DNA of 54,327 nt from NCBI RefSeq assembly GCF_003336425.1, contig NZ_QEIO01000015.1, positions 1 to 54,327 of the forward strand, read 5' to 3'. Numbering within the stretch: the first letter of the stretch is position 1; every line of letters starts with the position of its first letter. The notes under the pieces were generated by a model, which had not been told where the DNA came from, made no database searches, and was given only the letters and a program-made list of their open reading frames with translations. The DNA is from Marinitenerispora sediminis. GTDB lineage: Bacteria; Actinomycetota; Actinomycetes; Streptosporangiales; Streptosporangiaceae. The position numbers and the translations under genes were made by a program. This document shows, in pieces, positions 15,592-46,512 of the stretch.

Positions 15592-15617
15592 GTGCTCCCC
15601 CTCCACGGTGACCATTG

Positions 15618-15636: not shown

Positions 15637-15639
15637 ACA

Positions 15640-16078: not shown

Positions 16079-16798
16079 TCAGTCCCAGTACGCCCGCCAC
16101 TGCTCCGGCGTCAGCTCGCGCGGGTCGCGGCCGTCGGCACGCGCCTTGGCCTCGGCGGCGCGGACCCGGCCGTCGAAGCGGCGGGCGGCGGCGCGCAGGT
16201 CCATCTCGGGGTCGGCCGCGCGGCGGCGCTCGGCGTCCACGGCGGCGAACAGCTCGCCGCCCGGGCCGCCGTCGTCGGCGATGAGGTCCTCGGGGAGGCC
16301 GTTGCGCACGGCGCGCTTCTGGAGCTCGTAACCGAGCAGCGCGGCCGGCTGGCCGAACGGGACCCCCTCCAGGATGGACGCGTCGCGCTGGCCCTTCTCG
16401 ACGCGCTCGGCCGCCTTGATGGTCTCCCAGTTGGCGCGGACGTCGTCGACCCCGGCCACGTCCGCGCCACCGAAGACGTGCGGATGGCGGCGGGTGAGCT
16501 TGTCGATGATGGCGTCGGCGACGTCGTCGATCGTGAAGCCCTCCGGCCCGCGCTCCTGGGCGATCCGCGCGTGGAAGACCACCTGGAGCAGCACGTCGCC
16601 CAGCTCCTCGCGGAGCGTGCCGAGGTCGCCGTGCTCGATGGTCTCCAGCGTCTCGTACGCCTCCTCGATGAGGTACTTGGCCAGGGAGGCGTGGGTCTGG
16701 CCGGCGTCCCACGGGCACTGGCGGCGCAGGGTGTCCATGACCTCGACCAGCGCGAGGACGCGGTGCCCGGCCGGGGGGTGCGGCTGCTCGTCGTTCAT
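16079..16798 (-). CDS. mazG: MazG nucleoside triphosphate pyrophosphohydrolase
   Basis: 239 aa. The MazG core is clear: LRRQCPWDAGQTHASLAKYL, then EEAYETLETI, and REELGDVLLQVVFHARIAQE, with the EExxE...ExxD metal ligands. FTIDDVADAIIDKLTRRHPH and VFGG complete the signature. It cleaves NTPs to NMP and pyrophosphate, cleaning the nucleotide pool. ATG 16798, GAGGG close upstream. The C-terminal ~70 residues are a family-typical helical extension (WRAYWD end). It lies 4 bp after the sat/cysC-like gene on the same strand, so co-transcription is likely though functions differ. In Streptomyces mazG is also near eno and mfd. Confidence 0.93.
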   Translation of the reverse strand: MNDEQPHPPAGHRVLALVEVMDTLRRQCPWDAGQTHASLAKYLIEEAYETLETIEHGDLGTLREELGDVLLQVVFHARIAQERGPEGFTIDDVADAIIDKLTRRHPHVFGGADVAGVDDVRANWETIKAAERVEKGQRDASILEGVPFGQPAALLGYELQKRAVRNGLPEDLIADDGGPGGELFAAVDAERRRAADPEMDLRAAARRFDGRVRAAEAKARADGRDPRELTPEQWRAYWD

Positions 16799-16802
16799 AC
16801 CC

Positions 16803-18323
16803 TCAGCCTGCCATCCTGGGCAGCCACCCGCCGGCGCGCAGCTCCCGCAGCACGGCCGCCACCGACTCCGCCTCCGTGGCGTCGCTGGTGTCGATGACCA
16901 GGTCGGCGTCGTCCGGCGCCTCGTAGGGGTCGGAGATGCCGGTGAACTCCGGGATCTCGCCCATCCGCGCCTTCGCGTACAGGCCCTTGCGGTCGCGCGC
17001 CTCGCAGACCTCCAGCGGGGTCGCGACGTGCACCAGGAAGAAGTCGCCGGTCTCCTCCGCCATGGCGCGGACCTCGGCGCGGGTGGCCGCGTACGGCGCG
17101 ATCGGCGCGCAGACGGCGACGCCGCCGTGCCGGCTGATCTCGGCGGCGACGTAGCCGATCCGGCGGATGTTGAGGTCGCGGTCGGCCCGCGAGAACGTCA
17201 GGCCGGAGGAGAGCATCCGGCGCACCACGTCGCCGTCCAGCAGGGTGACCGTGCGGCCGGCCCGCCGGACCGCGTCGGCCACCCCGCGGGCGACGGTCGA
17301 CTTACCGGAGCCGGACAGCCCCGTGAAGAAGAGCGTGAGCCCGCGCCGCACCCGGGCCGGGCGCCGGCGGGCGAGTTCGGCGGAGACCCGCGCCGACGTG
17401 AACCACGCCGGCAGCGCCTCCCCCCGGCCGAGCATGTCCTCCACCTCGGTCGGGGTGAGCTCGCGGCGGGCCTCGCCGGCGCTGATCCGCTCGGCCGGGC
17501 GCCACGCGCCGGTCCGCGCGTCGTAGGCCCACTCCCCGGCGGCGACCAGCGGGATCGGGGAGTCGTCGGTGATCACGGCCGGCGGCTGGTCGGGGTCCCG
17601 GTTGACGAGGAGGTGGCTCGCCCCGTAGCGCGCGGCGACGTGCGCGGCCAGCTGTTCGGCGCGCCCCGCCGGCAGCGCCGTGCCGTCGGTGGTCCCGGCG
17701 CGGGGCAGCGTCAGCACCGAGAACCTGGTCCGGGGCGGCAGCAGCGGCTCGGCGGCGAGCACCGCGGGCACCGCCCCCTCGTCGTCGAAGGGGGCGTCGA
17801 CCAGCACCAGCACCTCCACCGGTCCGCCCCCGCCGATCTCCTTGACGGCGGCGCGGACCTGGTGCAGTGCGCGGTGGTGCAGCGGGCGGTCGGTGAGCAC
17901 CGCCAGCATCGGCCGGTGCGCGAGGGCGCCGATCTCGCGGCTGCCGCGTACCTCGACCGGAGCGCGCCGCAGGCTGCGGTACACCCCGTGCACGGGCGGC
18001 CGGGCGAAGTGCACCTCGCCGGCGAGCCGGTGCCCGCCGTCGGCCCACCAGCGCTCGGACACCGCCAGCTCGGCCAGCGGCGCGCCCTCGGCGTCGGTGA
18101 GCAGCACGCGCTCGGCGGCGACCAGCTCGTCGGGCACCGGCAGGGTGACCGGCACCGGCCAGGGGGTGCCGTCCGGCAGCCGGCCGCGTTTGGCGACCGA
18201 CGCCGTCTCGCTCGCGGTCATGAACCCGGTCAGCGGGCAGGCGCCGTTGAGGATGAGCTCCAGATGGGCCATGGCGTCCGGTCCCGGGGTGAACGTCGGC
18301 CGGTCTGCGGCGGCACCGGTCAT
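16803..18323 (-). CDS. cysC: APS kinase (CysC) fused to a degenerate ATP-sulfurylase-like N-terminal domain
   Basis: 506 aa. Residues ~330-500 are APS kinase: Walker A FFTGLSGSGKSTVARGVAD, then LLDGDVVRRMLSSGLTFSRA, NIRRIGYVAAEISRHGG, and GLYAKARMGEIPEFTGISDPYE. It phosphorylates adenylyl-sulfate to PAPS. Residues ~1-320 resemble Sat-type ATP sulfurylase (NGACPLTGFMTASETASV; PLTGF is a family mark). The catalytic motifs are lost: QxRNPxHxxH reads LTDRPLHHRALH, and GRDHAG reads VNRDPDQPP. So only the kinase is likely active, and ATP sulfurylase would come from CysDN. No cysH or sulfite reductase is nearby, so PAPS for sulfotransferases is the probable output. Confidence 0.88.
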   Translation of the reverse strand: MTGAAADRPTFTPGPDAMAHLELILNGACPLTGFMTASETASVAKRGRLPDGTPWPVPVTLPVPDELVAAERVLLTDAEGAPLAELAVSERWWADGGHRLAGEVHFARPPVHGVYRSLRRAPVEVRGSREIGALAHRPMLAVLTDRPLHHRALHQVRAAVKEIGGGGPVEVLVLVDAPFDDEGAVPAVLAAEPLLPPRTRFSVLTLPRAGTTDGTALPAGRAEQLAAHVAARYGASHLLVNRDPDQPPAVITDDSPIPLVAAGEWAYDARTGAWRPAERISAGEARRELTPTEVEDMLGRGEALPAWFTSARVSAELARRRPARVRRGLTLFFTGLSGSGKSTVARGVADAVRRAGRTVTLLDGDVVRRMLSSGLTFSRADRDLNIRRIGYVAAEISRHGGVAVCAPIAPYAATRAEVRAMAEETGDFFLVHVATPLEVCEARDRKGLYAKARMGEIPEFTGISDPYEAPDDADLVIDTSDATEAESVAAVLRELRAGGWLPRMAG

Positions 18324-18616: not shown

Positions 18617-22201
<3,585 letters not shown>

Positions 22202-25986: not shown

Positions 25987-26437
25987 GGCGCGTCCAAGCC
26001 GCCGCATGCGCCACCGCACCTCCACGACGGCGAGCGCCATCACGTTCCCCGTCCGCGCCTGATCGGCGGAAATCCGTAAGACCCGGTCGCGCACAGCGCG
26101 GGCGGGTTCGGCCAGCAGCAGCCCGGAGGCGTCCGGGCCGGCCCCGCCGCCGTAGGTGCCTTCCCCTGGTCATCCCGGCAAGGTGTCCGTCCGCCATTCC
26201 GGTGACCTCGCTCCCGGCCGCCTCCGGGTCGGCGTGTCCCGAGCGCGGCAGCGTGGTCGGCGGGTCCGAGAGCGGGGTGGCAGGCGGGCCGCTGCGGTCG
26301 GGCGGCCGCTGGACGTGCGGCGCGACCCGGCGCGGTTGGACTGTGGATATCGACCACTCTCCGCGCGCGAAGCACTACGCTGCGTATCCATATACATCCA
26401 TTGCGTGGTACCCGCACATGGAAGGACCGAAATCCAG
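25987..26437. other. Upstream region of the polysaccharide locus
   Basis: About 450 bp. The last ~90 bp before 26438 are AT-richer (CTACGCTGCGTATCCATATAC near 26377-26397) and should carry the promoter of the chain-length gene. No further transposase homology or gene is visible. Confidence 0.5.
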
Positions 26438-28375
26438 ATGGACACCGCTGCCTCCGGACCGGAACTCGGCGACTACACGGCCTTCCTGCGCCGGCGCTGG
26501 TGGATCGTGGCCGTCGGCGCCGCCGTCGGGGTCACCCTGGCGGCGCTCGCGCTGCTCGTCGTCCCCGCCACCTACACCGCCAAGACGGCGGTGCAGGTGC
26601 GTCCCACCGGCGTCCCCGACCTCACCGGCGAGCGGTCCGGCCGGACCAACGGCGAGGTGAACCTCGACACCGAGGCGCAGGTCGTGGCCTCGACCCAGGT
26701 CGCCTACGCCGCCGTGTCGCTCATGGACTCCGCCGAGGAGGTCACCGAGGCGCGCGAGCGCGTGTCGGTCACCGTTCCGCCGAACAGCAGCGTGCTGGAG
26801 ATCGCCTTCTCCGACGCCACTCCCGAACTGGCGCGCCGCGGGTCGGCAGCCTTCGCCGCCGCCTACCTCGACTACCGCAGGGCCCAGGTGACCGACCAGC
26901 TCGACGGGCGCATCGCCGCGCTGCGGGACGAGCGCGAGGGGCGGCGCGCGGAGTTGGACGCGCTGGCCGAGCGCGCGGCCACCTCGTCCGGCGGTGCGCG
27001 GGTCCGCGCGGAGAGCCACCTCGCGGCGGTCCAGGGCGAGCTCACGGAGCTGAACAACCAGATCAACCCGCTGAGCGCGCTCCGGGAGTCGGTGGTGCCC
27101 GGCCGCATCATCACCGCGGCCACCGCCCCGGACTCCCCGAGCTCGCCCGTCGCGCTGCTGTGGCTGACCGGCGGCGCCCTCCTCGGCCTGCTGGGCGGCC
27201 TCACCGCCGGCTATGTCGTGGACCGCTCAGCGCCCCGGCTGCACCGGGTCCGGGAGCTGCGCGGCAGCGTGGGCGCTCCGCTGCTGCTGGACCTCACCGA
27301 CGAGGCGGAGGCCGTCAGCGCCGCCGGCGGTCCGCTGCCCTCCGCCGGACGAGCCGCCCAGGGCTTCCACGCGCTGGCGCACACCCTCCGCAACCGGCTC
27401 GGTGTCACGGGCCGGCTGCTGCTGGTGCCCGCCGTGCCCCCGGGCCGCTCCGGAGGGATCGCGGCGGTGAACCTCGCCGCCGCGTTGGCCCGCACCGACG
27501 CCGACGTCCTGCTGGTCTGCGCCGACCTGGAGGACCGGACCGCCGCCGAGCTGCTGGACGTCACCGACGGCCCCGGACTCGCGGAGGTCCTGGAGGGCGC
27601 CGCCGAACACACCGAGGTGGAGCGGCGGCCGGCCGGCGTGCCGGGGCTGCGGGTGCTGCCGCCGGGCCGCCCCGGCGAGCACACCGCCGAGCTGCTGCAG
27701 CGCGACGTGATGAGCGTGCTGCTGCACGAGCTGCGCGGCAGTGCGCGCTATGTGCTCATCGCGACCGCCCCCACCTCGGTGCGGGCCGACGCCTACGCCA
27801 TGGCCGACGACGCCGACGCCGCGATCGTCACCGTCGAGCTGGGCCGCACCCGGGTGTCCGACGCCGTGGACGCGGTCCAGCGGCTGGAGCGGCTCGGCGT
27901 CGAGGTGCTCGGCACCGTGGGGCTGCCCGAGCGGCGCCCGGCCGAGGTCCCCGTGCCCGAGGCGGCCCCGGCGGAGCACGCCGGGCAGCGTTCGGCGGGC
28001 GCCGCGATCCGCACCGCCCGTGACCTGTTCGAGCGGCTGCGCGTCTGGTGGGGGCTGCCGCCGTCGTCCGCGGCCGCCACCCCGGCGGGCGTCACCGCCG
28101 CGCAGCCGACGGAGGACCGCCCCGCCGGAGCCGAGCAGGCGGAGAAGGCGGACAGGACCGGGACGTCAGAGCCGGCAGCTCCGGCGGCGCCGCCGGAGCC
28201 CGCGGAGGAGGACCGCACGGAGCAGGCCGTCCCCGAGGCGGAGCCGGCCGCTCCCGGCCCGGAGGCGCCCGCCGCCCCTGCGGCGGCGGACGGCCCGGTG
28301 GTCAAGAAGTCGGCGGTCCCGGCGCAGCAGGCCGGCACCGCCGCCGACGACGCCGACCTCGCGCCGCAGCGTTGA
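26438..28375 (+). CDS. Wzz/BY-kinase-like polysaccharide chain-length protein with missing kinase site
   Basis: 645 aa. Transmembrane helix 1 at about 22-42 (WWIVAVGAAVGVTLAALALL), an extracellular Wzz domain with coiled-coil potential (about 130-215), and helix 2 at about 230-255. Then comes a cytoplasmic domain like bacterial tyrosine kinases (VTGRLLLVPAVPPGRSGGIA, AAVNLAAALARTDADVLLV, CADLED). The Walker A lysine is absent (GRSGGI instead of GxGKST) and Walker A' DAD reads CAD, so catalysis is unlikely. The last ~110 residues are a Pro/Ala/Glu-rich tail without a tyrosine cluster. ATG 26438 with GGAAGG upstream. It probably sets chain length of the polysaccharide made by this locus. Confidence 0.85.
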   Translation: MDTAASGPELGDYTAFLRRRWWIVAVGAAVGVTLAALALLVVPATYTAKTAVQVRPTGVPDLTGERSGRTNGEVNLDTEAQVVASTQVAYAAVSLMDSAEEVTEARERVSVTVPPNSSVLEIAFSDATPELARRGSAAFAAAYLDYRRAQVTDQLDGRIAALRDEREGRRAELDALAERAATSSGGARVRAESHLAAVQGELTELNNQINPLSALRESVVPGRIITAATAPDSPSSPVALLWLTGGALLGLLGGLTAGYVVDRSAPRLHRVRELRGSVGAPLLLDLTDEAEAVSAAGGPLPSAGRAAQGFHALAHTLRNRLGVTGRLLLVPAVPPGRSGGIAAVNLAAALARTDADVLLVCADLEDRTAAELLDVTDGPGLAEVLEGAAEHTEVERRPAGVPGLRVLPPGRPGEHTAELLQRDVMSVLLHELRGSARYVLIATAPTSVRADAYAMADDADAAIVTVELGRTRVSDAVDAVQRLERLGVEVLGTVGLPERRPAEVPVPEAAPAEHAGQRSAGAAIRTARDLFERLRVWWGLPPSSAAATPAGVTAAQPTEDRPAGAEQAEKADRTGTSEPAAPAAPPEPAEEDRTEQAVPEAEPAAPGPEAPAAPAAADGPVVKKSAVPAQQAGTAADDADLAPQR

Positions 28376-28976: not shown

Positions 28977-30338
28977 ATGACGGCCGTGCACGCCGCCGAG
29001 CAGCCGGCCCGCGCGATCCGGCTGCCGGCCGGTTGGCCCTTCGTCGCGCTGTTCGCCGGGTACCCGCTGTGGTGGGCGCTCGGACTCGGGCAGTTCGCGT
29101 TCTGGGTCTTCGCCGTTCCCATGGCGGTGGAGCTCGTCCGCCGGCACCGCGCGGGCGGACTGCGGGTGCCGCCGGGGTTCGGGCTGTGGGCGTTGTTCCT
29201 GGTGTGGTCGGTGGCCGGACTCGCGTTCGTCGGGCTCACCCCCACCGGCGCGCTGCCCGGCAGCGGCGGGCTGCTCGGCGCGCTCGTGCGCATCGGCTGC
29301 TACCTCGCCCTGACCGTCCTGCTGCTCTACGTCGGCAACCTCTCGCGAACCGAGCTCTCGGACCTCCGGGTGGCCCGGACGCTCGGCTGGCTCTGCCTGG
29401 CCACCATCGCCGGCGGGCTGCTCGGCACCGTCGCCCCGCACTTCGAGTTCACCGCCCCCGCCGAGCGGCTGCTGCCCGGGGCGCTCGCCGCCGATCCCTA
29501 CGTCCAGGCGCTGCTGCACCCCGCGGCCGCGCAGGTCATGGACGTGCTCGGCTACGAGGCACCGCGCCCCAAGGCCCCATGGGAGTACACGAACTCCTGG
29601 GGCAACAACCTTTCGCTGCTGCTGGTGTGGCTGGTCGTCGGCTGGGTCCGGTTCGGCTCCGGATGGCGGCGGTGGGCGGCCGCCCTGGCCGTCGGGCTGG
29701 CCGCCGTGCCCATCGTCTACTCGCTCAACCGGGGGCTGTGGGTCGGCCTCGCGCTGTCGCTCGGCTTCCTGCTGTACTGGCTGCTGCGCCGCCGGCGGGT
29801 GGCCGCGGCGGCGCTCTGCGGAGCCGCGGCGCTGCTCGCGGCGGCGGCGCTGCTGCTGTCGCCGCTGATGGCCATCGTCGAGCAGCGCGCCGCCAGCCCG
29901 CACAGCGACGACGGCCGGGCCACCTCCAGCGCCGCCGCCGTGCGTGCCGCCAACGAGTCGCCGGTGGCCGGCTGGGGCGCCACCCGGGAGGCGCTCGGCA
30001 GCGGCGACTCGATCGCGGTCGGCCGAACCCCGGAGTGCCCGCAGTGCGGCAACAGCACCATCGGCAACAACGGCCACCTGTGGCTGCTGCTGGTCGCCAA
30101 CGGCTGGGTGGGCGCCGCGCTGTTCGTCGGCTTCTTCGCGCTGACCGCCTGGCGCCACCGCCGCGACCGGACGCCGGTCGGCGCGGCGGCGCTGCTCACG
30201 GTGCTGCTGCTGTTCTGGTACATGTTCTTCTACGTCGCGCTCACGGCGCCGCTCGCCATCACGATGACCGCCGTCGCCCTGCTGTGGCGCCGGGCGGCCG
30301 ATCGCCCCGGCACCGCCGCCGCGCCGGTGGGGGTGTGA
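28977..30338 (+). CDS. O-antigen polymerase/ligase-family membrane protein (Wzy/WaaL-like)
   Basis: 453 aa with about 11 hydrophobic segments. The central loop between segments (about 150-205, ending PWEYTNSWGNNLSLLLVWLV) and the following VPIVYSLNRGLWVGLALSLG, with conserved SLNRG, match the Wzy_C/O-antigen ligase group. A second extracytoplasmic loop carries Cys residues (TPECPQCGNSTIGNNGHLWL). It most likely polymerises or attaches undecaprenyl-linked repeat units on the outer face of the membrane. ATG 28977 has GGAGG six nt upstream. The next gene starts only 4 nt after the stop, so they form one operon. Confidence 0.85.
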   Translation: MTAVHAAEQPARAIRLPAGWPFVALFAGYPLWWALGLGQFAFWVFAVPMAVELVRRHRAGGLRVPPGFGLWALFLVWSVAGLAFVGLTPTGALPGSGGLLGALVRIGCYLALTVLLLYVGNLSRTELSDLRVARTLGWLCLATIAGGLLGTVAPHFEFTAPAERLLPGALAADPYVQALLHPAAAQVMDVLGYEAPRPKAPWEYTNSWGNNLSLLLVWLVVGWVRFGSGWRRWAAALAVGLAAVPIVYSLNRGLWVGLALSLGFLLYWLLRRRRVAAAALCGAAALLAAAALLLSPLMAIVEQRAASPHSDDGRATSSAAAVRAANESPVAGWGATREALGSGDSIAVGRTPECPQCGNSTIGNNGHLWLLLVANGWVGAALFVGFFALTAWRHRRDRTPVGAAALLTVLLLFWYMFFYVALTAPLAITMTAVALLWRRAADRPGTAAAPVGV

Positions 30339-30342
30339 CGCG

Positions 30343-31581
30343 GTGAGCGGCGACGCCAGCTACCTGTCCGTGGTGGCCGAGGTGCTGTGGCCGTGCGGCG
30401 TGCTGGGGCGCGGCCGCGGCCGCACCAGGCACGGCGACACCCGGCTTCCGCTGCCGGACGGCGTCCGGGTGCGGGAGTACCTGCCGGTGCCCTCCGCGCA
30501 GAACCCCCGGGTCATCCTGCCGGTGGCCGACCGCTACGCCGCCGCGCGCGGCATCTCGGCGTTCGCGCAGCGCCACTCCTTCCGGCAGCGGGTGCGCACC
30601 GCGCTGCTGACCACCGCGTTCACCAGCGGCCTGGCGCCGCTGCTGCTGCGCGACCGCGTCCGGGTCGCCTCGGGCCCGACCATCGAGCACGCGCTCGCGG
30701 CGGCCCTGGACCGCGAGGTGGTCATCGCCATCCACGTGGGTCCGCCGCGGGCCAACCGCAAACCCGTCCTGCTGCTGCTCACGCCGGGCGGGCGCAAGAT
30801 CGGCTACGCCAAGGTGGGCGTCAACCCGCTGACCTCCCGGCTGGTCACCGCGGAGACCGCCGCCCTGCGCCGGCTCGCCGACGCGCGGCTGCGCGACGTC
30901 ACCGTTCCGCGGCTGGTCTACGCCGGCGACTGGAACGGCCGTCCGCTGCTGGTGCAGGAGGCGCTGCCGGTCGGCGACCAGACCGACCGCCCGACCCGGC
31001 GGCAGCTGCTGCGGTGCGTGGCCCAGATCGCGGGCCTGGAGCCGATCCAGGAGCACCGCCTCTCCGCCAGCCCCTACCGCGCCGAACTGCACCGCCGCAT
31101 CACCGCGCTCGCGGGGCGGCCGGAGGCACCGGCGCTGCGCGCGGCCGTGGAGGGGCTGCCCGACCTCCTGCTGCCGTTCGGGGCGTGGCACGGCGACCTC
31201 ACGCGCTGGAACATCGCGAGCACGCCGCGCCGCGCGTTCGTGTGGGACTGGGAGCGGCTGGCCTCGGGCGTCCCGGTGGGGCTGGACGCCCTGCACTACG
31301 AGTTGACCGAGTGCGTGCAGGCCGGCGTGCACCCGGGTGTGCACCGCTGGCTGGACAGCGGCTCGCGGCTGCTGCGCGACCCCCTCCTGCTCGGCGCCGG
31401 CCTGCGGCCCGACTCCGTCTCCACCGTCATGGCGCTCTACCTCGTCGACCTGGCCACCCGCTACCTCCAGGACCGCCAGGCCGAGGCCGGCGCCCGGCTC
31501 GCCGCGGTGCACGAGTGGCTGCTCCCCGCCCTTGCCGGGCTCCGGGAACGCGCCGCCCACGAGGCGAGGCACGCCACGTGA
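30343..31581 (+). CDS. Aminoglycoside-phosphotransferase-fold kinase in the polysaccharide operon
   Basis: 412 aa. The catalytic loop GAWHGDLTRWNI (HGDxxxxN, about residue 285) and FVWDWERLASG (metal-binding D) match APH/choline-kinase-like enzymes. An N-lobe lysine may be in RKIGYAKVGVNPL. There is no signal peptide, so it should act in the cytosol. The start is GTG 30343, 4 nt after the Wzy-like gene. A sugar, lipid-linked intermediate or alditol could be the substrate; that is inferred from context only. The first ~110 residues have no recognisable domain. An antibiotic-resistance role is unlikely given the operon. Confidence 0.75.
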   Translation: MSGDASYLSVVAEVLWPCGVLGRGRGRTRHGDTRLPLPDGVRVREYLPVPSAQNPRVILPVADRYAAARGISAFAQRHSFRQRVRTALLTTAFTSGLAPLLLRDRVRVASGPTIEHALAAALDREVVIAIHVGPPRANRKPVLLLLTPGGRKIGYAKVGVNPLTSRLVTAETAALRRLADARLRDVTVPRLVYAGDWNGRPLLVQEALPVGDQTDRPTRRQLLRCVAQIAGLEPIQEHRLSASPYRAELHRRITALAGRPEAPALRAAVEGLPDLLLPFGAWHGDLTRWNIASTPRRAFVWDWERLASGVPVGLDALHYELTECVQAGVHPGVHRWLDSGSRLLRDPLLLGAGLRPDSVSTVMALYLVDLATRYLQDRQAEAGARLAAVHEWLLPALAGLRERAAHEARHAT

Positions 31582-31666
31582 GCCCGCGCCGCCCGCCTCC
31601 GGCGCCGCGCCGCCGCACCGCGGACCGCGGTGCACCCGTCCGCACCGATGATTGGGGCCAGCCACC

Positions 31667-32545
31667 ATGTCCGACCGTTCCGCCCGCCCGTCCGCACGCG
31701 TCCGCGCCGCCGCGCAGGAGGCGGCCCGCCGCGGGGCCGACGCGTTCAGCCAGCGCACCCGGGGCCTGCGCGCCCTGCCCACCTTCCTCATCGCGGGCGC
31801 GCAGCGGTGCGGGACGACCTCGCTCTTCAAGGCCCTGACGCAGCACCCCGCGGTGCTCGGCCCGGTGCTGCGCAAGGGCGTGCACTACTTCGACGTCGCC
31901 CACCACCGGGGGCTCGACTGGTACCGCGGGCACTTCCCGCTGCGGGCGCGGACGCGGCCGCGGCGCGGCCGGCCGCGGGTCCAGGTCGGCGAGTCCAGCC
32001 CCTACTACCTGTTCCACCCGCTCGCGGCCGAGCGCATCGCCCGCGAGCTGCCCGGGGTGCGGATCATCGTGGCGCTGCGCGATCCCGTGCAGCGCGCCTA
32101 CTCCGCCCACGAGCACGAGCGCGCCCGCGGCTTCGAGACCGAGCCGTTCGAACACGCCCTGCGGCTGGAGGAGGAACGGCTCGCCGGGACGGAGGAGCGG
32201 CTGCGCACCGACCCGGCCGCGCTGTCGCACAGCCACCGGCACCACGGCTACCTGGCGCGCGGCCGCTACGCCGAGCAGCTGGAGCGCCTGGAGAAGCACC
32301 TCGGGCGGGACCGGATGCTCGTCGTGGACAGCGCCGAGTTCTTCGCCGACCCCGAGCCGGTGTTCGCCGAGATCGAGGCGTTCCTCGGCCTGCCGCACCG
32401 GTCGGGCGTCCGGTTCGAGCGGCACAACGCGCGCCCCCGCGCCGACATGGACCCGGCGCTGCGGGCTCGGCTGGAGGAGTACTTCGCACCCCATGACGAA
32501 CGGCTCGCGGCGTGGTGGGGCCGGACCCCGTCGTGGCGGAGGTGA
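31667..32545 (+). CDS. PAPS-dependent sulfotransferase
   Basis: 292 aa. The 5'-phosphosulfate loop is FLIAGAQRCGTTSLFKALTQ (about residues 39-58), and the 3'-phosphate motif is IIVALRDPVQRAYSAHEHE. HYFDVAHHRGLDWYRGHFPL and VGESSPYYLFHP are typical of heparan-sulfate/carbohydrate sulfotransferases. It should transfer sulfate from PAPS to a sugar hydroxyl or amine. No signal peptide is visible, so it acts in the cytosol on a precursor. ATG 31667. The flippase gene follows with an overlapping start, so modified units may be made before export. Confidence 0.9.
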   Translation: MSDRSARPSARVRAAAQEAARRGADAFSQRTRGLRALPTFLIAGAQRCGTTSLFKALTQHPAVLGPVLRKGVHYFDVAHHRGLDWYRGHFPLRARTRPRRGRPRVQVGESSPYYLFHPLAAERIARELPGVRIIVALRDPVQRAYSAHEHERARGFETEPFEHALRLEEERLAGTEERLRTDPAALSHSHRHHGYLARGRYAEQLERLEKHLGRDRMLVVDSAEFFADPEPVFAEIEAFLGLPHRSGVRFERHNARPRADMDPALRARLEEYFAPHDERLAAWWGRTPSWRR

Positions 32546-34107
32546 CCGGCGGGCCGCGCGCCGACCCCGACGGCCTGGGCCGGGTGGCGCGCGGCGGCGC
32601 CGTGAACCTCGCGGGCGCCGTGCTGGGCGCCGGCCTGAACGTGGCGCTGACGGTGGCGGTCGCCCGGGCGTTCTCCCAGCAGACCGCGGGAGCGTTCTTC
32701 TCCGCGACGTCGGTCTTCCTCATCAGCGCGACGGTGGCCAACCTCGGCACGTCCAACGGCCTCGTGTACTTCGTGGCGCGGCTGCGGGCGCTCGGTGCCG
32801 CGCGGCTGGTGCCGCACGTGCTGCGGCTCGCGCTGGGGCCGGTGGCGGTGGTCGCGGTGCTGCTCGGGGGCCTGCTGCTCGTCCTCGCCGAACCGCTGGC
32901 GGAGCTGCTGGGCGGGCCGGAGGCGGGCCGCTACCTGCGGCTGCTGGCGGTGTTCCTGCCGTTCGCGGTGGCCACCGACGCCGTGCTGGCGGCGGCGCGG
33001 GGCTTCCACGACATGCGGGGCACCGTCCTGCTGGACAAGGTGGCCCGGCCGCTCGCCCAGCTGGGGCTGCTCGCCGGCGTCGCGGCGAGCGGGGCGGCCG
33101 GGCTGCTCGCCGTGGCCTGGGCCGGCCCCTACCTGCCCGCGGCCGTCCTCGCGTGGTTCTGGCTGCGCCGCGTCATGGGGGCCGCACCGGACCCGCCGCC
33201 CGGGCCGGGTGCGGCCGGGCCGGAGGGGGCCGGCGCTCCGGCCGCACCGCGCGCGGACGCCCGGACGTTCTGGGCGTTCGCGCTGCCGCGGTCGGTGGCC
33301 AGCGTCGCGCAGATCGGCATCCAGCGCGGCGGCATCGTGCTGGTGGCCGTGCTGCGCGGTGCGGCGGACGCCGCGCTGTTCACCGCGGCCACCCGCTTCA
33401 TGGTGGTCGGCCAGTTCGGGACGCAGGCGATCCAGTTCGCCGCGCAGCCCCGGCTGAGCGAACTGCTCGCGGTCGACGACCGCGCCGCCGCCAACGCGCT
33501 GTTCCGGACCAGCACCGCCTGGTTGGTCTGCCTCACCTGGCCGCTCTACCTGCCGGTCGCGCTGTACGCGCCGCTGCTGCTGCAGGTGTTCGGGCCCGGC
33601 TACAGCACCGGCGCGGCCGTGCTGGTGGTGGTCGCGGCCGGGATGCTGCTGTCGTCGGCGTGCGGTATGGGCGACCTGGTGCTCACGATGGCCGGCCGCA
33701 CCCGGTGGAACCTGGTGAACAACCTGGCCGCGCTGGCCGCGAACGTCCTGCTGTGCGCGGCGCTCATCCCGCTGCTCGGCGCGGTCGGCGGCGCGTTGGC
33801 GTGGGCGGCGGCGGTGTGCGTGCGCAACGTGCTGCCGCTCGTCCAGCTCGCGCGCTCGCTCGGGCTGTCTCCGTTCAGCCGCGTGTGGCTGGTGGCGGCG
33901 GCCGCCTGCACGGCGTGGTTCGGCGCCGTGCCGGCCCTCTGCCACTGGGCGCTGGGCGGCGGCTGGGCGTCCCTGCTGGTCGCCCTGGCCGCGGGCTGCT
34001 CCGGCTACGCGCTCACGCTGTGGCGGCTGCGTGCGGTGCTCCGGCTGGACGGCCTGCTGCCCCGCCGGCCGCGCCGCCGCGGACCCCGTCCGGCGGTCGC
34101 GGCGTAG
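32512..34107 (+). CDS. Wzx/MATE-type lipid-linked oligosaccharide flippase
   Basis: 531 aa with about 13-14 hydrophobic segments. RVARGGAVNLAGAVLGAGLN and FSQQTAGAFFSATSVFLISA begin the MOP-superfamily pattern; FALPRSVASVAQIGIQRGGI starts the second half. It likely moves undecaprenyl-linked units across the membrane. GTG 32512 overlaps the sulfotransferase gene by 34 bp. GTG 32533 or GTG 32542 (the last overlapping the TGA) are alternative starts, and none has a clearly better ribosome site. The overlap implies translational coupling to the sulfotransferase. Confidence 0.87.
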   Translation: MVGPDPVVAEVTGGPRADPDGLGRVARGGAVNLAGAVLGAGLNVALTVAVARAFSQQTAGAFFSATSVFLISATVANLGTSNGLVYFVARLRALGAARLVPHVLRLALGPVAVVAVLLGGLLLVLAEPLAELLGGPEAGRYLRLLAVFLPFAVATDAVLAAARGFHDMRGTVLLDKVARPLAQLGLLAGVAASGAAGLLAVAWAGPYLPAAVLAWFWLRRVMGAAPDPPPGPGAAGPEGAGAPAAPRADARTFWAFALPRSVASVAQIGIQRGGIVLVAVLRGAADAALFTAATRFMVVGQFGTQAIQFAAQPRLSELLAVDDRAAANALFRTSTAWLVCLTWPLYLPVALYAPLLLQVFGPGYSTGAAVLVVVAAGMLLSSACGMGDLVLTMAGRTRWNLVNNLAALAANVLLCAALIPLLGAVGGALAWAAAVCVRNVLPLVQLARSLGLSPFSRVWLVAAAACTAWFGAVPALCHWALGGGWASLLVALAAGCSGYALTLWRLRAVLRLDGLLPRRPRRRGPRPAVAA

Positions 34108-38447: not shown

Positions 38448-39937
38448 CCGAGAGCCACGCCCGCGACGACCGGCCGCTCGTGCTGGTCAGCATCGGTACC
38501 GACCACCACCCCTTCGACCGGCTGGTCGACTGGGTCGACGCCTACGCGGCCGACCATCCCGCGGTCCGCTGCCTCGTCCAGCACGGCGGCACCCGCCCGC
38601 CGTCGGTCGCCGAGGGGGTCGCCTTCCTCGACCACGACCGCCTCGGCGCGCTGATGGCCGAGGCCGCCGCCGTCGTCACGCACGGCGGTCCCGCGACCGT
38701 CACCGAGGCGCGGCGCAGCGGCCACCTTCCCATCACCGTCGCCCGCGACCCGGAACTCGGGGAGCACGTCGACGACCACCAGCTGCGGTTCGTCTCGCGC
38801 CTGGACATCGCCGGCATGGTGCGGTCCTGCGCCAGTTCCCAGCAGCTGGCCGCGACCCTCGACAAGGCGCTCCGCCAGCCCACCGACTTCCGGCTGGACC
38901 CCGACGCCGGCACCGGGCCGGCCGCGGCGGCCCACCGCGCCGGCGAGCTGATCGACCTGCTCTGCTCGGCGGGCGAGGAACCGGCGCCGCGCCCGCTCCC
39001 CCGGCCCCGGCCGGCCGCGGCGGCCGGCCCCTGGCCGGACGTGACCGTGGTCGTTCCCACCCGGGACCGGCCCGAGCTGCTGCGCCGCACCCTGCGCTCG
39101 ATCACCATGCAGGACTACCCGGGCGTGGTCACCACCCTGGTCGTCTACGACCACGACGACCCGGACCACGCGCTGTCCGACGACTGCGGCGACCGCCCGG
39201 TCCTGGTGCTCGGCAACACCATGAGCCCCGGCCTGGCCGGCGCCCGCAACACGGGCCTGCTCGCCGCCGAGACCGACCTCGTCGCCTTCTGCGACGACGA
39301 CGACACCTGGCTGCCGCACAAGCTGCGCGCCCAGGTCGAGGTGATGCGCGCCGAGCCCGAAACGGAGATCGTGTGCTGCGGCATCCGCGTCGCCTACGAC
39401 ACCACCGAGCGCACCCGGGTCCTGGAGCGCACCGCGGTGACCTTCGCCGACCTGCTGCGGTCCCGGCTCACCGAACTCCACCCCTCGACGTTCCTGCTGC
39501 GCCGCGACGCGCTCGTGCACGGCTGCGGCATGGTCAGCGAGGAGATCCCCGGCAGCTACGGCGAGGACTACGAGCTGCTGCTCCGCCTCGCCCGCCGCGC
39601 GCCGATCCGCAACCTGCCGGATCCGGCGGTGCGGGTGCTGTGGCATCCGCGTTCGCACTTCACCGGCCGGTGGCAGACCGTCTCCGCCGCGCTGCGCTGG
39701 CTGCTCGCCGAGTACCCGGAGTTCCGGCTGGTGCCGCGCGGCTACGCCCGGGTGGCCGGCCAGATCGCCTTCGCGGAGGCCGCGGCCGGCCGCCGGGGCG
39801 CCGCGCTGGAATGGGCCCTGACCACTCTGCGCGCCCGCCTACTGGAGCCTCGGGCGCCGCTGGCCGTCGCGGTGGCCTGCGGCCTGCCGGCCGACGCGCT
39901 GCTGCGCACCCTGCACCGGCGGGGCAAGGGCATCTAG
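38444..39937 (+). CDS. Alg13-like (PssE) domain fused to a GT2-family glycosyltransferase
   Basis: 497 aa. Residues ~8-165 are Alg13-like: VLVSIGTDHHPFDRLVDWVD, then AAAVVTHGGPATVTEARRSG, where HGG binds the nucleotide sugar. A Pro/Ala linker follows (~180-198). Residues ~199-420 are a GT-A fold: DVTVVVPTRDRPELLRRTLR, AFCDDDDTWLPHKLRAQVEV (DxD) and GSYGEDYELLLRLARR (ED motif). So two successive sugar transfers may be made by one polypeptide plus the Alg14-like partner, whose stop overlaps this start. The Alg13-GT2 order is unusual; Alg13 is normally a stand-alone ~160-aa protein. Confidence 0.87.
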   Translation: MTESHARDDRPLVLVSIGTDHHPFDRLVDWVDAYAADHPAVRCLVQHGGTRPPSVAEGVAFLDHDRLGALMAEAAAVVTHGGPATVTEARRSGHLPITVARDPELGEHVDDHQLRFVSRLDIAGMVRSCASSQQLAATLDKALRQPTDFRLDPDAGTGPAAAAHRAGELIDLLCSAGEEPAPRPLPRPRPAAAAGPWPDVTVVVPTRDRPELLRRTLRSITMQDYPGVVTTLVVYDHDDPDHALSDDCGDRPVLVLGNTMSPGLAGARNTGLLAAETDLVAFCDDDDTWLPHKLRAQVEVMRAEPETEIVCCGIRVAYDTTERTRVLERTAVTFADLLRSRLTELHPSTFLLRRDALVHGCGMVSEEIPGSYGEDYELLLRLARRAPIRNLPDPAVRVLWHPRSHFTGRWQTVSAALRWLLAEYPEFRLVPRGYARVAGQIAFAEAAAGRRGAALEWALTTLRARLLEPRAPLAVAVACGLPADALLRTLHRRGKGI

Positions 39938-40088: not shown

Positions 40089-41753
40089 TCACCCGCCGGA
40101 CCGCTCCCCGTCCTCCTCCGCACTGTCCTCCCGTCGCCGGCGGGCCTCCTCCCGCGCTTCCTGCCGGGCCTCCTCCTGCGCCTCCTCGACCAGTGACAGC
40201 GCGTCCTCGACGGCCTCCCGTGCCCGCGGCGGCAGGTTGACGTAGGGATCCCGTCCCGCCTGCGCGAACCCGCGGATGGCGTGGGGGTCCTCAAGGACGC
40301 GGAAGTCGCAGGTGGGCGCGGTCACCCCGTCCCAGACCTTGACGGCCCGGACCCGCTCGTACCCGCGCAGCACCTCGGGGATCTCGGCGTACCACGCGGC
40401 CGTGGCCTGCGGGTCCCCCGGGATCGGGACGGTCCCCATCTCGCCGATCATCACCGGCTTGTCGGGGTCGATGCCGTGCTTCGGCCCCTCCGTCTGCACC
40501 CACTCGTAGGTCGGGGCGAGCGCCTCCTCGAAGCTCAGCACCTCCTCCCAGTCCGGCTGGAGCTCGCAGCCGGTCATGTTGTACGCCTCCCAGCTGAGCC
40601 AGTCGACGTAGTCGTTGCCCGGCCACAGCCCGGGCAGCCGGTCCAGGTTGGCCGGCCACCCGGTCACGTTCCACACGAAGATGGCGTTGCCGGCGCCGTT
40701 GCGGCGGTACAGCTCCACGATGTGCCGCCACGCCTGCGTGAACTCCTCCGGCGTGCCGCGCTTCTCGTACCGGCGGCCGGCGTCCGCCTCGTGGTCGAAG
40801 GTGATGAAGTAGGGGCGGCCGGTCGCGGCCACGCCGCGCGCCTGGGCGGCCAGCGACGCGTCGAACTCGCCGTCGATGATCTGGCGGTAGGACACCTCGG
40901 GGTGCCCCGGTTCCGTGAACCGCCGGGCCTCGACGTTGGCGTGCAGGAACCGGCCCTCGTCGAGCAGGACCCGCTCCTCCTCGTCGGGGATGTCGTGCTG
41001 GTCCACCCCGTGCCACGTGTAGACGATGTCCATGCGGCGGCCGGCGGCGCGCTCCAGCGGGTAGACGTCGCCCTGCCACGGGCTGGCCCCCCACCAGACA
41101 CCGCAGGACGGCTCCAGGATCTCGCTCACCCGGCACCGCTCCTCCTCCGACACGGCGGTCGGCGGGGCGGGCTCGGCCGGCGGCTCGGGCTGCACACTCG
41201 GCTGCGGAGCCTCGTCCGGGCGCGGCGGGACCGGGACGGGCGGCGGCTGCGGCCCCGCCGGCTCCTGCTGGGCCGGGGACGCGTCCGCGGACGGCGCCGC
41301 CGCGGGAGCCGGTGACGGCACCGCCTCCGGGGACACGGACGCCTCCGGAGACGGTGCCGCGTCGGGGGACGGCGACGGCTGCGCCTCCGGTGCCGCGATG
41401 GCCTCTGGCGACGCGGCCGGCGCGGACGGTGGAGCCTCCGCCGGTGGCGGCGCCGCGTCCGGCGGCGCCGGCGCGGCGGGGGCGCTCGCAGCCGGCGCGG
41501 GCGCCTGCGCCGCGGGAACCGCGGTCTTCCCCTCGGGGGACGGCGGGGCGCTCGGCTGCTGCGACGGCGAATCCGAGGAGGCGTCGTACAGGCTGATCGG
41601 CCACTCTCCGGCCGGTGCGCACGCGGTCGCGGCCGTGGTCACCGCCACCAGCAGCACGCCGAGCCGCTCGGCCGGGCTCCGGCTGCCGCGCTCCCGCGAG
41701 CGGCGCGCCCCGCCCCGTCCTCCCGCATTCGCGGAACCTGGCTGTCCGCACAT
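40089..41753 (-). CDS. Secreted GH26-like glycoside hydrolase with long Pro/Ala linker
   Basis: 554 aa. The N-terminus has a hydrophobic segment ending ATACAPAG, which may be a weak lipobox. Residues ~65-225 are a Pro/Ala/Ser/Glu linker. The catalytic part (~230-520) has GVWWGASPWQGDVYPLERAA, ITFDHEADAG (acid/base Glu candidate), FVWNVTGWPAN, DYVDWLSWEAYN and PVMIGEMGTVP (nucleophile Glu candidate), all consistent with GH26/beta-mannanase-like folds. A charged coiled-coil tail ends it. ATG 41753 has no ribosome site, and a possible -10 (TATGGT, minus strand) lies ~15 nt upstream, so it could be leaderless. It may trim the polysaccharide. Confidence 0.78.
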   Translation of the reverse strand: MCGQPGSANAGGRGGARRSRERGSRSPAERLGVLLVAVTTAATACAPAGEWPISLYDASSDSPSQQPSAPPSPEGKTAVPAAQAPAPAASAPAAPAPPDAAPPPAEAPPSAPAASPEAIAAPEAQPSPSPDAAPSPEASVSPEAVPSPAPAAAPSADASPAQQEPAGPQPPPVPVPPRPDEAPQPSVQPEPPAEPAPPTAVSEEERCRVSEILEPSCGVWWGASPWQGDVYPLERAAGRRMDIVYTWHGVDQHDIPDEEERVLLDEGRFLHANVEARRFTEPGHPEVSYRQIIDGEFDASLAAQARGVAATGRPYFITFDHEADAGRRYEKRGTPEEFTQAWRHIVELYRRNGAGNAIFVWNVTGWPANLDRLPGLWPGNDYVDWLSWEAYNMTGCELQPDWEEVLSFEEALAPTYEWVQTEGPKHGIDPDKPVMIGEMGTVPIPGDPQATAAWYAEIPEVLRGYERVRAVKVWDGVTAPTCDFRVLEDPHAIRGFAQAGRDPYVNLPPRAREAVEDALSLVEEAQEEARQEAREEARRRREDSAEEDGERSGG

Positions 41754-41956
41754 AGCAAAGTGATTACCATACGCGTCGCACCAGTAACGGTAAGTATGCA
41801 GAGAGGCGAGTTGCCCCCACAAGCCCGCAGCCACGGCAGTTGCCGCAACCAGCACGGAAGCCCCCGATCAGGAACAACCCCGCTTTCCTCCCGATCTCGG
41901 CCACCGGGGACCGGCGGCCGCCGCGTGCAGCCGCCGCCCAGGGCCATACTGAGCCC

Positions 41957-44154: not shown

Positions 44155-45090
44155 TCAGTAGCCGTAGCGCCGGCGGGCCGGAGCTGTCAGCGCGGACACC
44201 ACCATCCGGTGCCGGAGAGCCAGACCACCCCGCCACGAGGCGTCCTCGCGCACCGTCACGGGACCGGTGGTGAAGCGCATGGGGTTGCCGGAGACCGTGT
44301 GGGTGCGCGACAGCGACGCGGTGCCGTCGGCCCCGATCGGCAGCACGCCGTCATGGCCGACGAACTCGGCGATCCCCGCGAACTCCCGCGCGGGGGCCGC
44401 CGCGAAGTCCTCGTAGCGCACCCGCCGGGTCGGCACCCCGCGCCGCGCGAGCGACGCCAGCACCGCGTTCTGCGCCATCCACTGCACGGCGGTGCGGCCG
44501 GGAGAGTAGCGGGCCATCTCCTGCTCGGGGCTGGTCGCGGTGGCGTCCGGCCGGCGCATCCGCTTGGTCCAGGAGTGCGCGACCGCGCGCGGGTCGCGGA
44601 CAACGTGCAGCACCCGCATCCGCCGGCCGTAGCGGTGCCAGAGGCAGGCGGCGAGGGAGGCGTGCTTGCTGGCATCCACCACGGTCCGGCAGCCGCTGAC
44701 CTGCGCGATGGCGGTGTACAGCTGGTCGTACAGCGCGGTGTAGCGCCGCAGCGCGGCCGCGAGGGCCTGCGGGGGGTCGTGCCGGAGCAGGGCCGGGACG
44801 TACCGGGTGCGGTCCACCGAGGCCCGCAGGCCCAGCGCGTCGCCCGGGTCCAGCCGGTCCCAGCCGCCGAACGCCGCCGCGCCCACCCGCCGCCAGAACT
44901 CGCAGTCGCCGAACGGCGCGCCGCAGCCGCAGAGCTCGTCGTCGACCAGGCTGCGCCGCCACATGTGCACGACCTCGCCGACCGAGCAGACCCCCGGGAG
45001 TTCGCCGAGCAGTCGCTCGATCAGCGTGGAGCCGGAACGGCCGATTCCACCGACGAAGACCAGCTGAAATCCGTCCACGGACCACCACAC
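44155..45090 (-). CDS. PAPS-dependent sulfotransferase (Sulfotransfer_3-like)
   Basis: 311 aa. The 5'-phosphosulfate loop FVGGIGRSGSTLIERLLGEL is at residues ~12-31, and the 3'-phosphate motif VLHVVRDPRAVAHSWTKRMR at ~160-180. GLRASVDRTRYVPALLRHDP and VDASKHASLAACLWHRYGRR lie between. GTG 45090 gives MWWSVDGF; GTG 45078 is an alternative start. It follows cysN on the same strand with 92 bp between, so PAPS-forming and PAPS-using enzymes are adjacent. The acceptor is unknown but expected to be the polysaccharide or a lipid-linked precursor. Confidence 0.88.
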   Translation of the reverse strand: MWWSVDGFQLVFVGGIGRSGSTLIERLLGELPGVCSVGEVVHMWRRSLVDDELCGCGAPFGDCEFWRRVGAAAFGGWDRLDPGDALGLRASVDRTRYVPALLRHDPPQALAAALRRYTALYDQLYTAIAQVSGCRTVVDASKHASLAACLWHRYGRRMRVLHVVRDPRAVAHSWTKRMRRPDATATSPEQEMARYSPGRTAVQWMAQNAVLASLARRGVPTRRVRYEDFAAAPAREFAGIAEFVGHDGVLPIGADGTASLSRTHTVSGNPMRFTTGPVTVREDASWRGGLALRHRMVVSALTAPARRRYGY

Positions 45091-45182: not shown

Positions 45183-46451
45183 TCAGCTCGCGCGGACGAC
45201 CATGCCGGCGCCGACGGTGGCGTTGGTGCCCTCGTCGATCAGGATGAAGCCGCCGGTGAGCCGGTTGCGCTTGTACTCGTCCACGAACAGCGGCTGGGTG
45301 ACCCGCAGGTTGACCCGTCCGATCTCGTTGAGGGCCAGCCGTCCGGCCGCCTCGTCGCGGTGCAGGGTGTTGACGTCCAGCCGGTAGTGCAGCTCGCGCA
45401 CCAGCGCCTTCGCGGTGCGGGTGGTGTGCTTGATGACGAGCTTGGAGCGCGGCGTGAGGTCGCGCGCCTCCGACATCCAGCAGACCATCGCCTCGACGTC
45501 CTGGGTGACGGTCGGCCGGTTGTTCGGCCGGCAGATCATGTCGCCGCGGGAGATGTCGATGTCGTCCTCCAGCAGCAGCGTCACCGACATCGGCGCGTAG
45601 GCCTCGGCGACCTCTCCATCGGCGGTGCGGATGCCGGCGATCCGGGTGTTCAGTCCCGAGGGAAGGTGCACCACCTCGTCACCCGGCTTGAGCACGCCGC
45701 CGGCCACCTGGCCCGCGTAGCCGCGGTAGTCGTGCAGCTCCAAATCGTCGGCGCGCTGCGGCCGGACCACGTACTGCACCGGGAAACGCACGTCGATCAG
45801 GTTGCGGTCGGAGGCGATGTGCACGTTCTCCAGGTGGTGCAGCAGCGAGGGGCCGTCGTACCACGGGGTGTTCAGCGACCGCTCCACGACGTTGTCGCCG
45901 TGCAGCGCCGAGATCGGGATGAACGCGAGGTCGGCGACGTCCAGCCGGGTGGCGAACGCCGAGAACTCCCGCTTGATCTCCTCGAAGCGCTCCTCGGCGT
46001 AGTCGACGAGGTCCATCTTGTTCACCGCCAGCACCAGGTGCGGCACCTGCAGCAGGGTGGCCAGGAACGCGTGCCGCCGGCTCTGCTCCTGCAGGCCCTT
46101 GCGGGCGTCCACCAGGATGATCGCGAGGTCGGCCGTGGAGGCTCCGGTGACCATGTTGCGGGTGTACTGGATGTGGCCCGGGGTGTCGGCGATGATGAAG
46201 GTCCGGCGCGGCGTCGCGAAGTAGCGGTAGGCGACGTCGATGGTGATGCCCTGCTCGCGTTCGGCGCGCAGCCCGTCGGTGAGCAGTGCCAGGTTGGTCT
46301 GCTCCTCACCGCGCGAGCGGCTGGTGCGCTCGACCGCGTCGAGCTGGTCTTCGAGGATGGACTTGGAGTCGTAGAGCAGCCGGCCGATCAGGGTGCTCTT
46401 GCCGTCGTCGACGGAACCGGCCGTGGCGAAGCGCAGGATGTCAGTGCTCAT
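45183..46451 (-). CDS. cysN: Sulfate adenylyltransferase large (GTPase) subunit
   Basis: 422 aa. GTPase motifs: G1 TAGSVDDGKSTLIGRLLYDS, G3 ADTPGHIQYTRNM, G4 LAVNKMDLVDY. TDGLRAEREQGITIDVAYRY is the switch region specific to CysN. Beta-barrel domains II/III fill the C-terminal half (FPVQYVVRPQRADDLELHDY onward). With CysD it makes APS from ATP and sulfate, driven by GTP. There is no fused CysC domain, so APS kinase comes from another gene (the 16.8-18.3 kb fusion). ATG 46451. CysD ends 61 bp upstream on the same strand. Confidence 0.95.
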   Translation of the reverse strand: MSTDILRFATAGSVDDGKSTLIGRLLYDSKSILEDQLDAVERTSRSRGEEQTNLALLTDGLRAEREQGITIDVAYRYFATPRRTFIIADTPGHIQYTRNMVTGASTADLAIILVDARKGLQEQSRRHAFLATLLQVPHLVLAVNKMDLVDYAEERFEEIKREFSAFATRLDVADLAFIPISALHGDNVVERSLNTPWYDGPSLLHHLENVHIASDRNLIDVRFPVQYVVRPQRADDLELHDYRGYAGQVAGGVLKPGDEVVHLPSGLNTRIAGIRTADGEVAEAYAPMSVTLLLEDDIDISRGDMICRPNNRPTVTQDVEAMVCWMSEARDLTPRSKLVIKHTTRTAKALVRELHYRLDVNTLHRDEAAGRLALNEIGRVNLRVTQPLFVDEYKRNRLTGGFILIDEGTNATVGAGMVVRAS

Positions 46452-46512
46452 GTGCGGGTATCCCATACGTCGAGAGGAACGGGCGCGGAGGCGGGCGGCT
46501 GGTCGGAGCGGG

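Follow-up and report, generated by a model that had tools for sequence, protein, structure and literature searches.

APS kinases that carry an N-terminal ATP-sulfurylase-like domain (SLD) are already known from Thiobacillus denitrificans and Entamoeba histolytica. The SLD of the hexameric T. denitrificans enzyme (3CR8) was described as inactive (Gay et al., 2009, as related in the accessible parts of PMC3734648 and PMC13213808). The accessible text of PMC13213808 also reports that in the E. histolytica APS kinase (EhAPSK; 23VK and 23VL) the SLD is inactive and the kinase is active. Removal of the SLD lowered kcat about 100-fold and caused the protein to aggregate, and the E90A and Y133A substitutions decreased kcat by 21- to 60-fold (PMC13213808). 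KM dropped as well, and the authors describe kcat/KM as largely unchanged. Since KM and kcat fall together, the gain provided by the SLD may matter only at high substrate. EhAPSK is a dimer with a short linker and belongs to a mitosomal pathway, and the same source describes the precedent of fungal ATP sulfurylase, which has a dead kinase-like domain (PMC13213808). Channelling of APS has been reported in bacterial enzymes composed of an N-terminal sulfurylase and a C-terminal kinase (accessible part of PMC3734648).

A gene of this family has also been studied in Actinoplanes missouriensis. According to the accessible text of PMC13390465, wps-1 is a predicted sulfated-exopolysaccharide cluster with two sulfotransferases. 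AMIS_7390 adjoins it, and its deletion 'unexpectedly' caused severe sporangium defects. Its product is described there as a member of the sulfate adenylyltransferase/APS kinase family related to APS formation. AMIS_7390 is a likely member of the group analyzed below; the accessible part of that paper does not remark on a dead sulfurylase domain. A survey of titles and opening lines of abstracts, which took in few subscription papers, found no recognition of such a domain in actinomycetes.

Here we analyze a fusion of this type encoded in a 54,327-nucleotide stretch of Marinitenerispora sediminis DNA (contig NZ_QEIO01000015.1, hereafter the window). To the known architecture we add an actinomycete clade, a CysD partner, a lobe-specific constraint and a link to the Actinoplanes phenotype.

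The fusion protein and its sulfurylase motifs

The earlier note had placed an APS kinase with a dead-looking ATP-sulfurylase domain at 16803-18323. These coordinates are correct, and the gene is on the minus strand, encoding 506 residues from an ATG (Table 1). A search of the genome (6.01 Mb in 441 contigs) turned up no other APS kinase and no other Sat-type domain. The gene adjoins a MazG-domain protein (16079-16798, minus strand) on one side and a protein that we read as Mfd-like from its domains (18617-22201, plus strand) on the other. Next to the MazG gene, a periplasmic-binding-protein-2 family protein is encoded at 14533-15984, a type that commonly accompanies iron-siderophore uptake.

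The C-terminal half matches the APS kinase family (PF01583) at residues 327-478 with 194 bits against a cut-off of 21.1, and passes TIGR00455 (187.4 against 138.7). Its P-loop and the invariant kinase columns of a 61-row alignment are present. These family scores and conserved positions assign it to the APS kinases, and kinase activity is predicted. In the N-terminal half, the PUA_2 domain (PF14306, residues 16-99) scores 58.1 bits against a cut-off of 27. The ATP-sulfurylase domain (PF01747, residues 118-319) scores 31.6 bits against 24.3, and 30.3 in the genome search. Both domains of a Sat-type protein are thus detectable, and the PLTGF landmark is found at residues 30-34, but the QxRNPxHxxH and GRDHAG motifs are absent. 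The protein falls below the equivalog cut-offs for sopT (TIGR00339, 53.7 against 322.95) and for the bifunctional SAT/APSK enzyme (NF004040, 378.5 against 669).

Table 1. Features of the fusion gene, the CysDN genes and the polysaccharide locus in the window
Feature	Position	Strand	Basis
SLD-APS kinase fusion, 506 aa	16803..18323	-	ORF, Pfam, AF2 model
PUA-like N-terminal lobe, residues 16-99, best-kept part of the dead-looking domain	18027..18278	-	PF14306, constraint
Degenerate ATP-sulfurylase catalytic lobe, residues 118-319	17367..17972	-	PF01747
Complete APS kinase domain, residues 326-500	16824..17348	-	PF01583, 194 bits; P-loop GLSGSGKST at 335-343
QxRNPxHxxH remnant LTDRPLHHRALH, residues 143-154	17862..17897	-	alignment
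GRDHAG remnant VNRDPDQPP, residues 240-248	17580..17606	-	alignment
Glu79, alignment counterpart of Entamoeba E90	18087..18089	-	E in 46/46 motif-less and 14/14 intact rows of alignment A2
Sulfotransferase, WpsB counterpart (48%)	44155..45090	-	domain search, match to Actinoplanes G167 cluster
CysN-type GTPase subunit, 427 aa, without fused kinase	45183..46466	-	domain search
CysD, proposed APS source, only CysD match above cut-off in the genome	46513..47532	-	447.1 bits
Wzz-like chain-length protein, WpsK counterpart (34%; match 26411-27973)	26156..28375	+	
Wzy-like protein, WpsJ counterpart (43%)	29178..30290 (match limits; start codon unsettled)	+	
WpsI counterpart (43%), without a Pfam match of its own	30343..31581	+	
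Sulfotransferase, WpsH counterpart (58%)	31652..32545	+	domain search, match to Actinoplanes G167 cluster
Wzx-like flippase, WpsG counterpart (42%)	32512..34107	+	
GT2 glycosyltransferase half of ORF 37973-39937, WpsA counterpart (48%)	39041..39934	+	
GH26-like protein (16.2 bits, under cut-off 20.2), weak WpsE counterpart (22%)	40089..41855	-	

Alignment to intact fusions located the remnants of both motifs. The first, LTDRPLHHRALH, pairs with the intact QTRNPxHRAHxE; it carries the changes Q143L, R145D and N146R, retains H149, and has alanine at position 152 in place of the second histidine. The second pairs with VGRDHAGPG, so that GRDHAG has become NRDPDQ. The motif sites are flanked by two gaps relative to the intact enzymes, one of about 26 columns and one of about 19. 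We rejected the possibility, raised in the earlier note, that intact motifs lie elsewhere: RNP, GRDH and HxxH were not found at other sites across the protein, and the genome search found no second Sat-type domain. Relatives in many genomes show the same loss, so it is not an assembly accident.

The AlphaFold2 (AF2) model of the protein is confident (pLDDT 93.0, pTM 0.88), and together with the motifs and family scores it agrees with a complete kinase joined to a dead-looking sulfurylase. The SLD is therefore predicted, from its sequence, to lack sulfurylase activity. The persistence of H149 and of the overall fold might hint at weak or altered activity, but with the glutamine, the asparagine, the second histidine, GRDHAG and the flanking loops all lost, we regard this as highly improbable.

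Comparison with solved structures places the protein close to the T. denitrificans enzyme. 3CR8 is its best whole-chain sequence match (E 1.4e-89). VIA-align also puts it at the top (Z 31.1; 452 aligned residues), level with 1i2d (30.5) and 2gks (30.1); in Foldseek it comes second, behind 1m8p. 23vk, which was matched by sequence, is absent from the rows listed by the two fold searches. The SLD-kinase order, the whole-chain fold and the loss of the SLD motifs are all shared with the T. denitrificans and E. histolytica type. Bifunctional SAT/APS kinases of the Aquifex aeolicus 2GKS type (NF004040) have the same domain order and fold, but they possess the sulfurylase motifs that the window protein lacks.

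Distribution and origin of the motif loss

Matches were found in 54 of 60 sampled genomes, the window's own included, and in all 36 other sampled genomes of its family. Among the best 80 of at least 589 confirmed loci, homologues occur in Nocardiopsis, Thermobifida, Actinomadura, Streptosporangium, Nonomuraea, Micromonospora, Actinoplanes, Saccharopolyspora and others. All 60 genomes drawn from the genus of Actinoplanes aureus (L091), its own included, contain a homologue. In the same best 80 loci, both motifs are present in 17 rows (hereafter intact; QxRNPxHxxH in 17/17), just one in none, and neither in 63 (motif-less). No intact row is labelled Actinomycetes; three are Acidimicrobiia, one is labelled to phylum only and one has no label. 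The motif-less rows comprise 60 Actinomycetes, two labelled only as Actinomycetota (L074 and L087) and one Thioalkalivibrio (L138). L074 and L087 nest among the other actinomycete rows in a kinase tree of 114 rows. Every judgeable actinomycete row in this set (61/61) has lost the motifs; L119 is a fragment and could not be judged. One locus, L049, encodes an intact sulfurylase-kinase fusion in the window's own class, and its genome (G046) gave no CysD match.

Individual positions were compared in alignment A2, which holds 61 of 81 possible rows (the window and the best 80 of at least 589 loci): 46 motif-less actinomycete rows, 14 intact rows, and the Thioalkalivibrio row set apart. The intact rows have glutamine at position 143 in 13 cases and histidine in one, and N146, H152 and G241 are present in all 14. 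In the 46 actinomycete rows, Q143 and N146 are never found, H152 is found in two and G241 in five; R145 remains in 30 and H149 in 37. The catalytic lobe scores only 20-60 bits or nothing in 14 actinomycete genomes (nine with a match, five without), and about 252-307 bits in the 17 genomes with an intact SLD, two of which have a second Sat. The Thioalkalivibrio enzyme differs from the actinomycete clade. It retains RNPMH and has lost the second histidine and GRDHAG. Its SLD still scores 266.6 bits, and its genome contains a second Sat (265.1 bits).

Among the 61 motif-less rows with a recognized P-loop (from the best 80 of at least 589 loci), 52 are long forms and nine are short. In the short forms the P-loop is located at residues 235-252 and the linker region is missing. 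The model of one short form, L129, has a pLDDT of 89.4 and a poorly defined stretch near residues 221-230; its pTM of 0.57 indicates low confidence in the overall domain placement.

Two trees bear on the number of losses. The 114-row kinase-only tree requires two changes between the motif-less and intact states, and its well-supported branches force two. This tree leaves out the contig-end fragment L119, six rows that are fragments or have doubtful N-termini (L030, L048, L052, L054, L055 and L056), L111, in which no P-loop was matched, and unnamed rows identical to a named row over their last 150 residues. A second tree contains 46 hand-picked rows and three PDB chains (3cr8, 23vk and 2gks). 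In this 49-row tree the actinomycete rows hold together (97/85), and a p-AU of 0.0115 speaks against a single clade of all motif-less rows; the well-supported branches alone force only one change, and the 2gks and 23vk branches are very long. In the same tree, T. denitrificans 3cr8 is placed apart from the actinomycete clade, in a group (90/71, below the star limit) with the Thioalkalivibrio enzyme L138 and with L140, an intact row that even falls between L138 and 3cr8. Both trees disfavor a single motif-less ancestor shared with T. denitrificans and E. histolytica, although the long branches of 23vk, 2gks and L140 weaken this test. A loss in actinomycetes separate from the Thiobacillus type is thus favored by the sequences but not proven. 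The combination of a dead sulfurylase and a live kinase is not a curiosity of two organisms; it spans a large actinomycete clade, perhaps through separate loss. The intact, eroded and shortened forms make up a natural series in which the role of the retained domain could be measured.

Lobe-specific conservation of the SLD

The two lobes of the SLD differ in how well they are conserved. Among intact enzymes, conservation is higher in the catalytic lobe than in the PUA lobe for all 91 pairs. The opposite is found in 987 of 1081 motif-less pairs and in 0/91 intact pairs; this comparison used 47 motif-less rows, the 46 from actinomycetes and L138. Where kinase identity is 0.6-0.8, catalytic-lobe identity falls from 0.68-0.73 in intact pairs to 0.40-0.43 in motif-less pairs, and PUA-lobe identity is 0.58-0.60 and 0.51-0.56, respectively. 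Median dN/dS among 12 close relatives is 0.20 for the kinase, 0.39 for the PUA lobe, and 0.58 for both the catalytic lobe and the linker; synonymous sites are saturated (median pS 0.40-0.45), which makes the absolute values unreliable, and only the ranking of domains is used. Thirty-six SLD positions are at least 95% identical in the 46 motif-less rows of A2 (from the best 80 of at least 589 loci), and 27 of them lie in residues 13-102. At the sequence level, constraint on the SLD is inverted: the PUA-like lobe has kept almost the degree of conservation seen in live enzymes, and constraint on the catalytic lobe has eased.

This pattern bears on whether the SLD is vestigial and eroding neutrally. 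The short forms (9/61 rows with a P-loop, from the best 80 of at least 589 loci) and the dN/dS of the catalytic lobe relative to the kinase point in that direction. The ranking of the PUA lobe below the catalytic lobe, the concentration of near-invariant positions in it, and the confident predicted fold of both long and short forms argue against it. In addition, full loss of the SLD was not seen within the clade, at least among the loci compared here; kinase-only matches are present in genomes of the class that are less closely related. We therefore hold neutral erosion to be unlikely. The constraint retained in the PUA lobe fits better with a structural contact.

Alternatively, the SLD might act allosterically, sensing a bound sulfonucleotide (APS or PAPS) and adjusting the kinase in response. 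It would then mirror fungal ATP sulfurylase, the precedent discussed in the accessible text of PMC13213808. The fold is kept in the model, and H149 persists in 37/46 motif-less rows of A2, drawn from the best 80 of at least 589 loci. Against this stand the loss of the catalytic motifs and of two loops, and a catalytic lobe that is conserved less well than either the PUA lobe or the kinase. These features leave this proposal only a slim chance.

A structural or regulatory role, suggested by the earlier note, is consistent with the constraint on the PUA lobe and with the published Entamoeba enzyme, in which an inactive SLD accompanies an active kinase. The similarity between the two SLDs is low (19.0 bits, in the N-terminal part of the Entamoeba protein). 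EhAPSK residues are numbered here as in the paper; by our count, 23VK chain numbering is 23 higher. Of the contact pair E90-Y133, which is known for Entamoeba only, the glutamate corresponds to E79 and is kept in all 46 motif-less rows. Y133 corresponds to G113, which is glycine in all 46 motif-less actinomycete rows and tyrosine in the 14 intact rows of A2 (from the best 80 of at least 589 loci). This replacement makes an exact copy of the Entamoeba contact impossible, and judging from the alignment, the contact is not kept residue for residue in the clade. Kinase residue 350 is acidic in 46/46 motif-less and 0/14 intact rows of A2, again from the best 80 of at least 589 loci. We gave no weight to this as a sign of co-adaptation, since stand-alone APS kinases can be acidic at the equivalent position too.

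By analogy with the published E. histolytica enzyme and with what has been proposed for T. denitrificans, we think it most likely that the PUA-like lobe rests against a kinase domain, where it would steady the oligomer or speed kinase turnover. On this reading the SLD has lost its catalytic site and is retained as a folded non-catalytic part.

CysDN and the wps-1-type polysaccharide locus

The CysDN genes share the contig of the fusion gene, at a distance of about 30 kb. The earlier note had proposed pairing with CysDN, and the genome profile (50 loci) and linkage (41 genomes of the window's order) agree with it. CysD is above cut-off in 32/32 genomes with a motif-less actinomycete SLD and in 0/17 with an intact one, one of which shows a match of 18.7 bits, far under the cut-off. 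This profile covers 50 of the 80 loci (best 80 of at least 589) in related genomes; its counts are not independent, because the motif-less actinomycete rows are one clade and some of the 32 genomes are shared with the 60-genome sample. In that sample, 55 genomes have a CysD match and 52 are over the cut-off. The window's family contributes 36 further genomes to it: each has a match, and 35 exceed the cut-off, the exception being G029 (364 bits against 396.6). The Thioalkalivibrio genome has no CysD match and has the second Sat instead. A possible alternative source of APS is thus present in all 33 motif-less genomes tested.

The kinase and CysD genes are on one contig in 24 of 41 genomes of the window's order, the window's included, and on different contigs in 17. 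In the 24, the nearest CysD is 3.3-48.9 kb from the kinase. Six kinase-bearing contigs exceed 3.8 Mb (G012, G018, G021, G023, G030 and G031), and in all six CysD is 7.7-22.1 kb away. L051 (G056), the first-branching motif-less fusion of the actinomycete clade in the 49-row tree, has CysD at about 1.2 kb, which suggests that the linkage between kinase and CysDN arose early.

Co-occurrence and frequent linkage would also be expected if the SLD were a docking platform that holds CysDN beside the kinase and hands APS over directly, and APS channelling in bacterial sulfurylase-kinase enzymes (accessible part of PMC3734648) offers a parallel. The Thioalkalivibrio enzyme speaks against this, with lost motifs in a genome without CysD. 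Moreover, most of the strongly conserved SLD positions have the same residue in intact enzymes of CysD-less genomes. Docking thus seems rather unlikely to us.

Besides CysDN, the window encodes glycosyltransferases, a pair of sulfotransferases and proteins resembling Wzz, Wzy and Wzx. Eight wps-1 genes (A, B, E, G, H, I, J and K) have counterparts in it, that of E being weak. The Wps letters were assigned from the gene order in PMC13390465 to the frames of an Actinoplanes locus (L153, genome G167). With guessed frames of the G167 cluster as queries, the window yielded no counterparts of WpsC, WpsD or WpsF. The order K-J-I-H-G is that of the G167 cluster; A, E and B are elsewhere in the order, partly on the other strand. 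With its Wzz-Wzy-WpsI-sulfotransferase-Wzx order and a nearby APS kinase gene, the window contains a locus of the wps-1 type. ORF 37973-39937 joins a glycosyltransferase-28-type C-terminal domain to GT2; in L153 the WpsA-like frame encodes a GT2 protein alone.

In G167, positions 4631-18210 of L153 match the published wps-1, and an APS kinase gene adjoins them. This kinase, the only one found in G167, is 44.6% identical to the window protein and has likewise lost the motifs. By gene position and cluster content, it is probably AMIS_7390. The two loci differ in that CysD is far from the kinase in G167 and linked to it in the window, where the Mfd gene intervenes between the kinase gene and the cluster. 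We compared 12 loci for the order kinase-Wzz-WpsI-sulfotransferase-Wzx. Seven loci have it (L091, L097, L114, L116, L120, L129 and L135), and L098 follows it up to where its sequence ends. In L119, and partly in L063, the order is present with Mfd interposed, an arrangement shared with the window. L061 has WpsI and the sulfotransferase without a Wzz or Wzx match, and L092 lacks this order.

Taken together, we consider it likely that the window protein is a kinase that provides PAPS at a locus for polysaccharide sulfation and obtains its APS from CysDN, and that its dead sulfurylase has been retained in a structural or activating capacity. CysDN would make APS, and the kinase would turn it into PAPS for the sulfotransferases of the locus. 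This reading builds on the motif loss, the confident model fold, the co-occurrence with CysD, the locus content and the lobe-specific constraint; from these we infer that the sulfurylase is inactive, that PAPS goes into sulfation and that the SLD has a structural or activating function. Replacement of Y133 by glycine, loss of the linker in the short forms, the distant CysD in G167 and the largely unchanged kcat/KM of EhAPSK count against it. A further-reaching idea is that the dead sulfurylase was re-used as a coupling module, which activates or positions the kinase and takes APS from the GTP-driven CysDN, often at the same locus. We regard this as doubtful; if true, a sulfated polysaccharide of the envelope or sporangium would have a PAPS supply of its own.

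A supply of PAPS to the cluster sulfotransferases would explain the sporangium phenotype of the AMIS_7390 deletion. The motif-less sulfurylase domain of its probable counterpart makes the link of AMIS_7390 to APS formation doubtful. The testable alternative is that its product is a PAPS source for the wps-1 sulfotransferases rather than an APS maker.

The window genome contains a second PAPS_reduct match (L034), a protein with Cys-Cys and Cys-x-x-Cys near a sulfite-reductase-like frame. We take this cysteine pattern to be typical of APS reductases; both labels are our reading of the sequence rather than the outcome of a family search. If L034 is an APS reductase, cysteine synthesis would use APS, leaving PAPS free for sulfation. 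Also in the window, a short-chain dehydrogenase is encoded at 23090-24865, and its approximately 350 N-terminal residues have no Pfam match at E 0.001.
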